DNA from: Fervidobacterium pennivorans DSM 9078
GTDB lineage: Bacteria > Thermotogota > Thermotogae > Thermotogales > Fervidobacteriaceae
Assembly (NCBI RefSeq): GCF_000235405.2
Contig: NC_017095.1
Location: forward strand, 1,823,501-1,887,500
Direction: 5' to 3'
Length of the DNA stretch: 64,000 nucleotides
Positions within the stretch are counted from its first letter, which is position 1, and the number at the start of each line of letters is the position of its first letter. The position numbers and the translations under genes are program-made. Of this stretch, positions 23,435 to 29,543 are shown one piece after another. The notes beneath the pieces were generated by a model that did no database searches, had not been told where the DNA came from, and saw nothing but the letters and a program-made list of their open reading frames with translations.

Positions 23435-25429
23435 ATGGCTTGGATGAAAAGATTGGTAGTTTTTGCGCTCCTGATTAGCGTTCTTTCACTTGCAGCTTTA
23501 AAAGTCGAGGGGAACAAGGTCATCTTCACATTCACCTATCCACAAGCGAACACGGTTCATCTTGCCGGGACATTTAACAACTGGTCAACCACAGCCAACC
23601 CGATGAGAAGAGAAGGCGACACATGGATTACCGAACTCGAGCTAAAACCGGGGACTTATCAGTATAAGTTTGTCATTGACGGTGGTAAGGTTTGGAAAGA
23701 AGACCCAGATGCACCAGGTTACACAGACGATAGCTTTGGTGGAAAAAACGGTGTATTTACCCTTGCTCTTAAGGATGGAAACTTGGTTATAGTTGCTCCT
23801 GCTCCCGAGATTGCTGGAAAGATTGAAATTAACGAAGAAAGAGAAGAGAATTTCTATATTGAGGATAACGTGTATGTTGTCATCCGCTTTTATAAACCTG
23901 ATGCGAAATACGTCTTCATTGCTGGTTCGTTCAATAACTGGAGTTCATCAGATACTGAGTGCTACAGTGCAGGCGATGGTTGGTGGGAAGCTGTCCTTGA
24001 GTTGACACCTGGTGTTTATCAATACAAGTTCGTAGTCGATGGAAAAGATTGGGTAACTGACCCGAATGCACCTGCGTATGTAGATGATGGATTTGGTGGA
24101 AAGAACGGAGTGTTTGAAGTTTGGAAAGAAGACGGTCTACTGAAAGTAGGGGCACCAAGAGTCCAGTTGGAAGCAGAAGAGAAGAAAGTTGAGATGCCAA
24201 AAGAAAACATTGTCAGGTCAGTTGAGTACTCAGTCGATGGTAAATTAACTGATACAGAAAAATCGACAGCTTACTTTGAGGGAACGGGAATTTTCAAAGG
24301 AGCTTATGTAGCAAGAACATCATCAGCATTTTATGTTGCCGTAGAACTTGATAAACTGGCAAAAGACTATCTCAACCAGAATATTCTTGTCGAGGTATAT
24401 ACCGATTCTCCGAGAATGACTTCTGCGAATACAAAGACCTACAACGGAACGGAGCTTGCCAAAAAGGTCGGCTTTAGGTTTTCCGTGAATATGAAAACAT
24501 ACCCAGCAAGAAAACGTGGTTCGTTCTTTGCAGCCATGGGAGATAACACATGGGTTCTCCAGGCGAATCCATTTAAGACGGCTGTTGATGAAGTGGTAGA
24601 ATTCGAAATACCATACGACATAATCGGTGTGAAGAGCGGGGAGACGTTCAACGTTTTTGTTGTAGTATCTGTTGATGGGAAAGACCAGGTAGTCCCGACC
24701 GAAGGTGTTACTGTTAAGACACCAAGTATGATTTCTGGAAATGTGATTGCCAAATTCGTTGATAAAATCGGTGATGATTACGGCTTTGGAACATACACAT
24801 ATCCAAAAGACCCAGCGTTTGCACCTTACAAAGGACTTTGGGATATAACAGAGGTTACAGTACTTGAAAACGAAGATGCATATGTATTTGCAATTAAATT
24901 CGCGGAGATGACAAATCCATGGGCATCACCAAAGGGATTTTCACACCAACTTGTGAACATTTACCTTGATACAAAAGATGGTGGAAGAACTGACACCTAC
25001 AAAGAAGGCGCAAGAGTCCAATTTAAAGAACCGTGGGATTACTTTATAAAAATTGCAGGTTGGCCAGATTACGGTCAAGTCTTTGCAACTGCCGATGGGA
25101 AAGAGATAGCAGAAGCGATAACATACGAAGCAGATCCTGCGGACAAGGTAATATACATCGTCGTATTCAAAAAATTCCTTGATGTCCAAAAAGGCATTAA
25201 AGCTTATATACTTTCAATGAGCCAAGATGGTTTTGGAACAGACCACATAAGAGCGATTACACCAAATGCATCACAATGGACACTTGGTGGTTATCCATCA
25301 GATTCCAAAGACTACGCACCTTGGGTGCTTGATATCGTTGTCCCAGAAGGATACACCCAAGAAGAAATGCTCAAATCTTACATTCCTGGTCAGGCGTATG
25401 CAACATTGATACCTGTGGTTGTCAAATAA
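23435..25429 (+). CDS. Secreted alpha-glucan-binding protein: two CBM48-like domains plus DOMON-like and glucodextranase-C-like domains
   Basis: A 664-residue exported protein without a catalytic domain. After the signal peptide (1-21), residues about 22-112 and 140-240 are two glycogen-binding E-set modules of the AMPK-beta/CBM48 type; each has the AGxFNNWS core, GTYQYKF or GVYQYKF and FGGKNGVF. Residues about 260-430 look like a beta-sandwich of the DOMON type. The C-terminal 230 residues (GDDYGFGTYTYP, NPWASPKGFSHQ, YLDTKDGG) match the glucodextranase C-terminal domain family. It probably holds starch or glycogen at the cell surface for pullulanase. AAGGAGGG precedes the ATG. There is no C-terminal anchor. 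Confidence 0.85.
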   Translation: MAWMKRLVVFALLISVLSLAALKVEGNKVIFTFTYPQANTVHLAGTFNNWSTTANPMRREGDTWITELELKPGTYQYKFVIDGGKVWKEDPDAPGYTDDSFGGKNGVFTLALKDGNLVIVAPAPEIAGKIEINEEREENFYIEDNVYVVIRFYKPDAKYVFIAGSFNNWSSSDTECYSAGDGWWEAVLELTPGVYQYKFVVDGKDWVTDPNAPAYVDDGFGGKNGVFEVWKEDGLLKVGAPRVQLEAEEKKVEMPKENIVRSVEYSVDGKLTDTEKSTAYFEGTGIFKGAYVARTSSAFYVAVELDKLAKDYLNQNILVEVYTDSPRMTSANTKTYNGTELAKKVGFRFSVNMKTYPARKRGSFFAAMGDNTWVLQANPFKTAVDEVVEFEIPYDIIGVKSGETFNVFVVVSVDGKDQVVPTEGVTVKTPSMISGNVIAKFVDKIGDDYGFGTYTYPKDPAFAPYKGLWDITEVTVLENEDAYVFAIKFAEMTNPWASPKGFSHQLVNIYLDTKDGGRTDTYKEGARVQFKEPWDYFIKIAGWPDYGQVFATADGKEIAEAITYEADPADKVIYIVVFKKFLDVQKGIKAYILSMSQDGFGTDHIRAITPNASQWTLGGYPSDSKDYAPWVLDIVVPEGYTQEEMLKSYIPGQAYATLIPVVVK

Positions 25430-27196: not shown

Positions 27197-27769
27197 TTGA
27201 AAAAAAGTGGTGCGAAAATACAAGAACGTTCGAAAAAGATAGCTTACATAGGTTTAATCCTTGGCTTTCTTTTCGTGTTCGTTTACCTTGGTCATGCAAC
27301 GCCAAGCGAGTGGACATTCCTTATACTTGCTTCTTACTTAGCTTATGCTCCATACCTTTTGTTTGATAGCTTTTTTGCAGGGTTTTGGACTGTTGTCGGT
27401 TTAAATGTACTCGCTTACCTATTTATACCGAGAATTGGATATGTTACTACGTTTACGTTCATTTCTTTTTACGTTCCAGTGAGATATATAATAATGAAGA
27501 AATTATCAGCACTGCCTTCCTGGATTTTTAAATACGTTTATTTCAATTTTGCATTTTTTGGTTGGGTTTATGTCCAAAGCAAGGTACTTGGTATCGATAT
27601 ACTTTCACAAACAGCAACAGGTATTGCCAAAGTGATTCCCGTGAGCGAAGCTTTGGTATTTTATGGTATAATTATCTTTGGCAACATTTTTTTCGCAGCA
27701 TACGAATATCTTTTTGAAAGAGTTGTTCAAGAGATGAAAAGGTGGATTGAAAAGATATTAATAAAATGA
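27197..27769 (+). CDS. Multi-pass membrane protein of unknown function
   Basis: I do not recognise this 190-residue product. It has about six hydrophobic helices and basic ends (KKSGAKIQERSKK and KRWIEKILIK), so it is an inner-membrane protein with cytoplasmic termini. No transport or enzyme motif is visible. The start is TTG 27197, with AAAGGAG ten bases upstream. It precedes the J-like Cys-rich gene by 27 bases and then the DUF5685 gene, so the three are probably one transcript. Confidence 0.75.
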   Translation: MKKSGAKIQERSKKIAYIGLILGFLFVFVYLGHATPSEWTFLILASYLAYAPYLLFDSFFAGFWTVVGLNVLAYLFIPRIGYVTTFTFISFYVPVRYIIMKKLSALPSWIFKYVYFNFAFFGWVYVQSKVLGIDILSQTATGIAKVIPVSEALVFYGIIIFGNIFFAAYEYLFERVVQEMKRWIEKILIK

Positions 27770-27796
27770 ATAATTGACAGGTTGGGGGTGTTGTAC

Positions 27797-28180
27797 TTGG
27801 CACGTAGTTTGTATGAGCTTCTCAATGTAGAACCAGATACACCCCATATACGGATTGAGGCACTATACAGAGAGTATCTTGAAAAGTATGATCCGAAAAG
27901 ATACGAAAATAGTCCACTTAAGCCTATTGCTACGGCAAAATACAATGAGCTGATTGAAGCCTATGAAGTATATAAAAGAGGGCAAGGTGATGAAATGATA
28001 CCAGTTGAGTATTCAAAGTTTGGTGGTTATGCAGATTCTACATTAAAGGGTTATAGACCTGGATATTATTACAGAAGAAATGACGGTTGCTGTGACGATG
28101 TGTGTCGATGTATCGGTTGTCTTTGGGTTGGCGATACTTGTTGCGAGTGCATGGGCGGAGATTGCATTTCGTGTATGTAA
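27797..28180 (+). CDS. Degenerate J-domain protein with Cys-rich tail
   Basis: A 127-residue protein. Residues 1-65 resemble a J domain: SLYELLNVEPDT opening, a helix ending EKYDPKRY where the Hsp70-activating HPD should stand, and YNELIEAYEVYKRG. The HPD is missing (YDPK instead), so DnaK stimulation is unlikely. The last 32 residues hold ten cysteines (GCCDDVCRC, GDTCCECMGGDCISC), an arrangement able to bind zinc or a cluster. I place the start at TTG 27797, after GGGGGTG; the frame is open five codons further. The partner is the DUF5685 gene 30 bases downstream. Confidence 0.75.
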   Translation: MARSLYELLNVEPDTPHIRIEALYREYLEKYDPKRYENSPLKPIATAKYNELIEAYEVYKRGQGDEMIPVEYSKFGGYADSTLKGYRPGYYYRRNDGCCDDVCRCIGCLWVGDTCCECMGGDCISCM

Positions 28181-28210
28181 ATTCTTTGATTTTGTTAAGT
28201 GGGTGTTTTT

Positions 28211-29077
28211 ATGTTTGGATATGTCAAACCAGAAAAAAGCGAACTAAAGGTTAGGGAACTGAACGAATTTCGTGCGTTTTATTGTGGAGTTTGCACAAGT
28301 TTACATAAATCGCGATACCTTGCAAAGTTGTTTCTGAGCTATGATGCTGTTTTTTTCGCACTGATTTTAACTTCGATTAGAGGCAAGATACTTGAATACA
28401 AAAAGCGTTTTTGCGGGGTTGGGTTAAGAAATATTTTGTATTACGAAAGTGAAGAGATAAGTCTTGCTGCAAGTAATTTTCTTTTGCTACTGAAATACAA
28501 ACTTTTAGACGATGTGAGAGACGAAAGGAATTTTGTTGAAGCTCTGCTTTTGAACTTTTTTAAAAACATCACAGGGAGCTCCGCTACTTTAGAATCTCGC
28601 CTTCAAGCTCTTATTAGAGAACTTAGTGAGACAGAAAGAAAACGTGAACCCACCGTTGACAAGCCTGCTGAGATTTTTGGTAATATCGTTGCACTGTTTT
28701 TTGAAGATTTGGGTGAGCTGTCTTCTGAACAAAGGACGGTGTTAATACATCTTGCCAGGCATATTGGAAAATGGATATACGTGCTTGATGCGTTCGATGA
28801 TTTGAAAAAGGACATAAGTAAAGGGAACTACAATCCATTGGCTATTCAGTTTGGATTTACCCATGGGATGGATATTCAAGAGTTTATTGACAAGATTAGG
28901 CCTAAGGTTAGGGAGTACTTATTCAAGATTTATGATGAAGTGGTCCTTGCTTACAATTTACTTGAGTTGAAGACATACAAAGGAATTCTTGACAATATAG
29001 TCTACCTTGGACTGTTTGAAGAGACGGAACGTGTTTTAAGCGGAAGAAAAACATGCAAAAAGCTTTATACGGCGTAA
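28211..29077 (+). CDS. DUF5685-family protein, isoprenoid-synthase-like helices
   Basis: A 288-residue, mostly helical protein. The N-terminus MFGYVKPEKSELKVRE and FRAFYCGVC match the DUF5685 family. A conserved acidic segment, YVLDAFDDLKKD followed by GNYNPL, resembles the DxxDD metal-pyrophosphate motifs of all-helical isoprenoid synthases; a second acidic cluster (KLLDDVRDERN) lies near residue 100. This suggests, but does not show, binding of a diphosphate substrate. I start at ATG 28211 because family members begin MFGYV; a GTG four codons earlier is open. Cysteines near 27-30 add a possible metal site. Function is unknown. Confidence 0.8.
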   Translation: MFGYVKPEKSELKVRELNEFRAFYCGVCTSLHKSRYLAKLFLSYDAVFFALILTSIRGKILEYKKRFCGVGLRNILYYESEEISLAASNFLLLLKYKLLDDVRDERNFVEALLLNFFKNITGSSATLESRLQALIRELSETERKREPTVDKPAEIFGNIVALFFEDLGELSSEQRTVLIHLARHIGKWIYVLDAFDDLKKDISKGNYNPLAIQFGFTHGMDIQEFIDKIRPKVREYLFKIYDEVVLAYNLLELKTYKGILDNIVYLGLFEETERVLSGRKTCKKLYTA

Positions 29078-29222
29078 TTTTTTTAATTCATCAGTTTGCA
29101 ATGCTCTCTTGCACTTTTAAAATGTGAAGAGCTATGGTAAAATAAACAAGCTAGCACAAAAAGGTTGTAGAAGTTAGAGGCTTTTTTGAAAAGCCTATTT
29201 TTGTTAATCAGGAGGTTTTAGG

Positions 29223-29543
29223 ATGATAAGATGGAACTTGTATTCTTTTGGTGAGTTTATTCCACATTGGTATAAGTGGGAAGACGGAACGAAGTTTGTT
29301 GTAGTTTACGGCACATATGAGATAGGTGATTGGGTTTTCCAAGATTCGAAATTGGAGATAGAACTAATTGAGGTTCCAGATGAGATAAGAGACCTAAGAG
29401 AAATATACGAATTCCCCTGGGAGAGATTTAAGATACTACCAACGGATAAAACGGTGGTTGTTAGTCAAGGGAACTTAGAGGATATCGCAGAAACAGAATT
29501 TGAAAAGTTTGTATTGGGACTTGATAATAAAAGTGAGGGTTAG
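29223..29543 (+). CDS. Small hypothetical protein
   Basis: A 106-residue soluble, acidic protein rich in Trp, Phe and Glu, with no signal peptide or membrane segment. AGGAGG stands eight bases before ATG 29223, and an extended -10 element (TGGTAAAAT, 29136-29143) lies 80 bases upstream, so it is a real gene. I see no known domain. A strong terminator follows. Confidence 0.7.
   Translation: MIRWNLYSFGEFIPHWYKWEDGTKFVVVYGTYEIGDWVFQDSKLEIELIEVPDEIRDLREIYEFPWERFKILPTDKTVVVSQGNLEDIAETEFEKFVLGLDNKSEG

Follow-up and report, generated by a model that had tools for sequence, protein, structure and literature searches.

The stretch of DNA analysed here (the window) is 64,000 nucleotides long and forms part of the 2.17-Mb genome of Fervidobacterium pennivorans DSM 9078, which is a single contig. 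An earlier note on this DNA, made from its sequence alone, had described a membrane protein, a J-like protein and a DUF5685 protein encoded together at positions 27197-29077, and three plus-strand open reading frames are indeed found there (Table 1). They are separated by gaps of 12 and about 30 bases, and the gene upstream of the set, encoding an MFS transporter, is divergent. Because of this divergent gene and the terminator-like stem 3' of the set, it is plausible that the three genes are read as one transcript. Searches of NCBIfam and PADLOC placed none of the three window proteins in an informative family (the J-like protein had only weak DnaJ matches in NCBIfam), and a listed defence system was thereby ruled out. 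Behind the terminator-like hairpin, downstream of the operon, lies an orphan gene (29223-29543, plus strand) for a 106-aa protein with no Pfam or NCBIfam match; L005 and L006, from the same genus, also have it just 3' of the operon. Elsewhere in the window (23435-25429, plus strand), a 664-aa protein carries two AMPK1_CBM/CBM48 glycogen-binding modules and a Glucodextran_C module, and a Pfam search found no catalytic domain in it.

Table 1. Genes, motifs and signals of the three-gene locus, in window positions
Feature	Position	Strand	Size or basis
Six-helix membrane protein gene, predicted ECF S-component-like fold	27197..27769	+	190 aa
Reduced J-domain/cysteine-string protein gene, HPD and TPR module lost	27782..28180	+	132 aa; PF00226, homologue alignment
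Degenerate J domain, residues 10-63, HPD to DPK	27809..27970	+	PF00226, alignment
C-terminal cysteine string, 10 Cys in 32 residues, DGCCDDVCRCIGCLWVGDTCCECMGGDCISCM	28082..28177	+	tail model, E 2.9e-18
DUF5685 open reading frame, longest form	28199-29077	+	292 aa
DUF5685 (PF18937) protein, predicted type I isoprenoid-synthase fold	28211..29077	+	288 aa, conserved MFGY start
C25 and C28 of YCGxC motif	28283..28294	+	conservation; with C68, possible metal site
C68, in beta hairpin added to the fold	28412..28414	+	98% Cys, 2% His
First Asp-rich motif, D100-D101-x-x-D104	28508..28522	+	aligned to DDx4D of trans-prenyl synthases
Second Asp-rich motif, D193-A-x-D-D197-x-x-x-D201	28787..28813	+	aligned to DDxxD (SARM)
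Terminator-like hairpin and T run, 3' of operon	29178..29196	+	pattern scan, barely above shuffles

Scanning GTDB contigs for DUF5685 gave at least 585 relatives, of which 80 were kept, almost all from Clostridia. The J/Cys-tail gene is a neighbour of the DUF5685 gene in about 95 of 103 loci (downstream in 83 and upstream in 12), and a related six-helix gene adjoins the J/Cys-tail gene in 80 of the 103. Loci without a J/Cys-tail neighbour are mostly contig ends or have divergent tails. When the tail gene lies apart from DUF5685 (L198, L200, L201 and L203), the six-helix gene still adjoins the tail gene, and the six-helix gene is present at 78 of 86 loci with a canonical tail as compared to 4 of 21 with a divergent one (Fisher, 2e-10). 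The conserved gene neighbourhood on which the earlier note had made its proposal depend therefore exists, and it extends across two phyla. Of 70 Clostridial loci, 16 (L028, L033, L038, L040, L073, L085 and L093 among them) also have a pgsA-like phosphatidyltransferase gene upstream of DUF5685, in the same orientation and no more than 3 kb away, often directly before it. In the Thermotoga group, genes resembling, by eye, those of type III CRISPR systems (Csm/Cas10) border the DUF5685 operon (L009, 1-1404; L016, 84-1456).

The search for co-occurrence across genomes that the earlier note had called for gave a near-perfect correspondence. DUF5685 is present in 23 of 61 Thermotogota genomes, and the cysteine tail, represented by a model of 45 columns, is present in the identical set (Fisher, 2.7e-17, a value inflated, like that for Clostridia below, by the relatedness of the genomes). 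The membrane protein was found in 20 of the 61, all of them within the 23-genome set, and in two of the three DUF5685 genomes without a membrane-protein match a diverged multi-helix gene adjoins the tail gene (L023 and L203). Among 245 genomes of the class Clostridia, a sample that includes many draft assemblies, DUF5685 scored over the cut-off in 129 and the tail in 91, and 89 of these 91 have both (Fisher, 3e-32). Separate contigs carry the membrane protein, on the one hand, and DUF5685 and the tail, on the other, in G045 and G051, and in G050 it is the tail and DUF5685 that are separated in this way; therefore, the co-occurrence is not explained by linkage alone. Twenty of the 40 Clostridial DUF5685 genomes without a tail match were inspected. 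A J homologue was present within the stretch inspected in 16 of them, and 14 of these 16 homologues adjoin DUF5685 and have a divergent Cys-rich C-terminus. Most of the apparent absences of the tail from 40 of the 129 genomes thus look like misses of the model.

In the tree, the Thermotogales sequences group with those of thermophilic Clostridiaceae (100/98), and two Fervidobacterium metagenome-assembled genomes (L002 and L003) are separate from them, as sister to Caloramator/Thermobrachium (100/99). This grouping suggests that the genes crossed between the two phyla at least twice, with binning errors possible in L002 and L003. Because the J protein of L003 is 57-60% identical to the J proteins of the same Clostridia, the genes probably moved together. 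Near-complete close relatives, namely G005 from the same genus and genera g3-g5 from the same family, are without all three components, and this joint absence indicates that the whole unit was lost or gained together. That the three genes form one functional unit is well supported.

The J-like protein falls just below the cut-off of the J-domain family PF00226 (E 9e-6, 26.1 bits against 27.8). Its lack of HPD was correctly recognised in the earlier note: where its relatives have KYHPDRY, the window protein reads KYDPKRY. The ten cysteines reported for its last 32 residues were likewise counted exactly, and for comparison DUF5685 proteins have a mean of 0.65 Cys in their last 34 residues. Nineteen of 20 homologues have a J-domain sequence match (best E 2.8e-19), 13 of 20 match TPR_2 in the TPR-like middle that characterises the full-length members, and HPD is kept in 81 of 95. 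The tail is always C-terminal, frequently with CC or CI as its last residues, and its consensus at the extreme C-terminus is DxCxxCxCLxCxDxCCECMGGDLIxCC. A mispredicted or chance reading frame could be ruled out, because tail homologues accompany every DUF5685 genome of the Thermotogota sample. As judged from the alignments, the window protein is a lineage-specific reduction of the canonical J-TPR-Cys-string protein of Clostridia. TPR was lost in Thermotogales and HPD in the Fervidobacterium group; elsewhere, J and TPR were both lost, leaving tail-only proteins of 76 and 67 aa (L023 and L203), or J was lost and TPR kept (L198 and L200), or TPR was lost and J kept (L206 and L210). The cysteine tail is retained in every lineage with a loss of J, TPR or HPD. 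The J and TPR modules and HPD were lost repeatedly, J and TPR independently, with the tail kept. Two individual cases were also noted. One J/TPR homologue (L027, 5869-6507) has a C-terminus with 15 Cys in 34 residues and no GGD motif. Another J/Cys-tail gene (L036, 5834-6232) is apparently frameshifted, so that its reading frame ends ahead of the tail; the sequence for the tail nonetheless lies close by in that genome (G063 match).

The DUF5685 protein matches PF18937 with 214.6 bits, and no other credible Pfam family was found in DUF5685 proteins. PF00348 matches none of 27 members at E up to 5, and on such sequence searches DUF5685 is not a member of that family. When solved structures were searched by sequence, just designed helical repeats and chance matches were returned, with no solved relative. 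The AF2 model (pLDDT 87.5, pTM 0.87) matched trans-prenyl diphosphate synthases along its full length, among them the GGPP synthase 3lmd with Z 18.2 and rmsd 3.8 over 256 residues, in a comparison where helical models can reach Z of about 13-14 through common helix arrangement. Every one of the best 50 VIA entries, with Z from 18.2 down to 15.2, is a prenyl synthase or MoeN5 (Z 16.4), a related protein. Squalene/phytoene synthases, whose second motif resembles that of DUF5685 by eye, are not among these 50 but may still be relatives. Foldseek also ranked prenyl synthases at the top, with a modest E of 2e-3. Profile-profile comparison with 44 trans-prenyl synthases gave a score of 35 (p 4.7e-4, with an HH-suite probability of just 32%), as compared to at most 21.5 for 40 block shuffles and 16.4 for the reversed control. 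With high model confidence, DUF5685 is predicted to belong to the type I isoprenoid synthase fold superfamily. The earlier note had drawn this likeness from a DxxDD-type motif, DAFDD, and had left it to structure prediction to show a related or an unrelated fold; the motif is found at residues 193-197, on the second Asp-rich motif, and the predicted fold is that of isoprenoid synthases.

Profile alignment, on which the motif positions rest, places D100/D104 in register with the first (FARM) and D193/D197 in register with the second (SARM) Asp-rich motif. Among 97 DUF5685 sequences, D100, D193, D197, E142, Y190, N208, C25 and C28 are invariant; D104 is conserved at 98%, C68 at 98% (with His in the remainder) and D201 at 81%. 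The first motif varies at its second Asp (D101, 46%) and the second motif has Ala in place of its second Asp (A194, 99%), so that the full DDxxD is absent. It is plausible that DUF5685 carries a diphosphate-metal site, and C25/C28/C68 (Cys/His) probably form an extra metal site. We know of no site like the latter in the isoprenoid synthase superfamily. The missing second Asp of either DDxxD-type motif would be consistent with the notion that DUF5685 is catalytically dead and gives structural support to a membrane tether with a Cys string (the bacterial counterpart of cysteine string protein), in quality control by chaperones or of membrane proteins; the J-TPR architecture and the HPD kept in most homologues would agree with such a role. 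We consider this notion very unlikely, given the strict conservation of the six Asp, Glu, Tyr and Asn residues listed above, with D104 nearly so, and given that the system persists in several lineages, including the Fervidobacterium window, from which J/DnaK function is gone.

Previous studies have described ComQ and PalQ as enzymes with the isoprenoid-synthase fold, each of which prenylates the peptide encoded next door (PMC10853753, PMC13290415). The arrangement described here resembles ComQ-ComX of Bacillus and PalQ-PalX of Paenibacillus, both Bacillota, in that an isoprenoid-synthase-fold protein lies beside a small candidate acceptor. However, the characterised trans-IDS-like protein prenyltransferases all modify Trp and none modifies Cys (PMC13290415), whereas the candidate acceptor here is a ten-Cys tail. 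A Trp acceptor by analogy with ComQ was ruled out, as the tail Trp (CLWC) is not conserved, being swapped for I, Y, M, A or V in many loci. ComQ is without the second Asp-rich motif (PMC10853753, PMC13290415); DUF5685 has both and, unlike ComQ and PalQ, also has an extra hairpin, three conserved Cys and no Pfam match besides its own. The trans-polyprenyl diphosphate synthases of PF00348 resemble DUF5685 in fold, with Z reaching 18.2 over 240-256 residues, and have their two Asp-rich motifs at the same positions, but DUF5685 has no Pfam match to them, is missing the second Asp of each motif, and adds the beta hairpin with the conserved YCGxC and C68. In animals, the palmitoylated cysteine-rich domain of cysteine string protein localises the protein to membranes (PMC10903463). 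CSP alpha (DNAJC5) and our full-length homologues have in common a J domain and a cysteine string, which here would attach the protein to membranes; the resemblance is one of architecture. They differ in that the string here is at the extreme C-terminus with a TPR segment between, that the window protein is without HPD, and that the lipid proposed below is prenyl rather than palmitate.

Our preferred reading, put forward tentatively as the most economical one to take in every part, is that DUF5685 is a Mg-diphosphate prenyltransferase related to ComQ/PalQ and that, at the membrane, it lipidates its partner on the cysteine string. The enzyme would bind an allylic diphosphate via Mg2+ at D100/D104 and D193/D197 of its class I isoprenoid-synthase fold, and would move a prenyl or other lipid-diphosphate-derived group onto thiols of its neighbour's C-terminal cysteine string. 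The lipidated string would anchor the J/Cys-tail protein at the membrane, beside or on the ECF-S-like six-helix protein. A J/TPR adaptor for DnaK recruitment would thereby be brought to the membrane in the case of full-length homologues; in Fervidobacterium, DnaK recruitment would have been lost, with the anchored-tail function alone left. We infer the catalysis, the diphosphate substrate, the cysteine acceptor and the partnership with the membrane protein. The genome itself encodes a prenyl synthase, a candidate source of substrate. The loss of J and TPR with the tail kept was counted in favour of tail lipidation by DUF5685; the Trp-only precedent, the missing second Asp in the motifs and the probable metal site at C25/C28/C68 count against it.

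The main rival to lipidation is metal binding by the tail. The tail might be a compact metal (Zn, Cu or Fe-S) domain that, with C25/C28/C68 and the ECF-S-like protein, makes up a metal- or cofactor-handling complex, in which the fold of DUF5685 would serve as a scaffold or carry out a reaction on a small molecule, and DnaK, helped by the J domain, would assemble the site. We regard this as possible but doubtful. The common form of the tail conserves, besides 8-10 Cys and their spacing, an Asp and GGD (D118, G125 and G126 in the window protein). This fits a metal site better than lipidation and is suggestive of metal binding, as simple lipidation would need less. The exchange of C68 for His in 2% of DUF5685 sequences is one usual for metal ligands, and six-helix ECF S-components bind small vitamins. 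However, many Clostridia have lost the spacing and the GGD; in divergent members the non-Cys residues of the tail drift and a Cys-rich hydrophobic string stays (CTPCCPMPCCCFPCCC, CLGLCLARLFCPWCC). A fixed metal site would be intolerant of such changes, and drift to bare Cys-rich hydrophobic strings fits lipidation better. Moreover, DUF5685 has kept the Asp motifs expected of diphosphate chemistry.

The six-helix membrane protein, noticed earlier ahead of the J-like gene, has a helical AF2 model with pLDDT 94.9. No Pfam family scored over the cut-off for the window protein. Its best ten PDB matches are all ECF S-components, ranging from TmRibU (Z 10.9, rmsd 3.9 over 157 residues) to ThiT (Z 6.8), and the first unrelated PDB row follows at Z 6.5. 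Two of its relatives match DUF2232 (best E 6e-6), and a search for EcfT found two CbiQ/EcfT homologues in the same genome. On this model, the protein is ECF S-component-like: it shares with RibU, FolT, BioY and ThiT the six-helix fold and a length of about 170-190 aa, and EcfT is present in the genome, but it has no S-component Pfam match and its gene is tied to the Cys-tail gene. This fold and the EcfT homologues would also suit a scheme in which DUF5685 makes or uses a free isoprenoid (a terpenoid or a prenylated small molecule) and the ECF-S-like protein binds or moves the product or a precursor; the Cys-tail J protein would then do no more than help assembly from its membrane anchor, and any lipid on it would come from a different enzyme. 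D193/D197/D201 are spaced i, i+4 and i+8, which is the spacing of the metal-ligand triad of terpene synthases, and the upstream pgsA is a gene of phospholipid synthesis. Nevertheless, we judge such a scheme unlikely: the Cys tail outlasts J and TPR and hence is hardly a mere helper, and at most variant-tail loci DUF5685 is still there with no membrane protein adjoining.

Searches of the open-access full-text literature found DUF5685 named in one domain list alone, that of a paper on C. difficile R20291 (PMC9403866), where no more is said of it, and found no description of the three-gene set, a description elsewhere being possible. This fits the earlier note's view of an undescribed system. The unit, its folds, its motif positions and the conservation of its tail follow from computation, and they support the three genes as a widespread, undescribed bacterial system that pairs DUF5685 with a Cys-tail protein and an ECF-S-like membrane protein. 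We infer that this system is lipid- or metal-linked, and it could be a bacterial route for the attachment of lipid to protein. A stronger claim, that DUF5685 is the first isoprenoid-synthase-fold enzyme to S-prenylate cysteine in bacteria, making a dedicated membrane-anchoring system on a cysteine-string protein, seems to us rather unlikely. If true, it would mean a form of membrane anchoring that is convergent with eukaryotic protein prenylation and cysteine string proteins and is widespread in Clostridia and Thermotogota. In any case, a domain with no assigned function, encoded by about half of the sampled Clostridia (129 of 245) and also by C. difficile R20291, can now be given a predicted fold, a candidate for its catalytic site and two partners, and it becomes directly testable whether protein cysteines are prenylated in bacteria by an enzyme of their own. 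If the reaction differs, there would still be a three-part membrane unit, transferred and unexplained, in both phyla.
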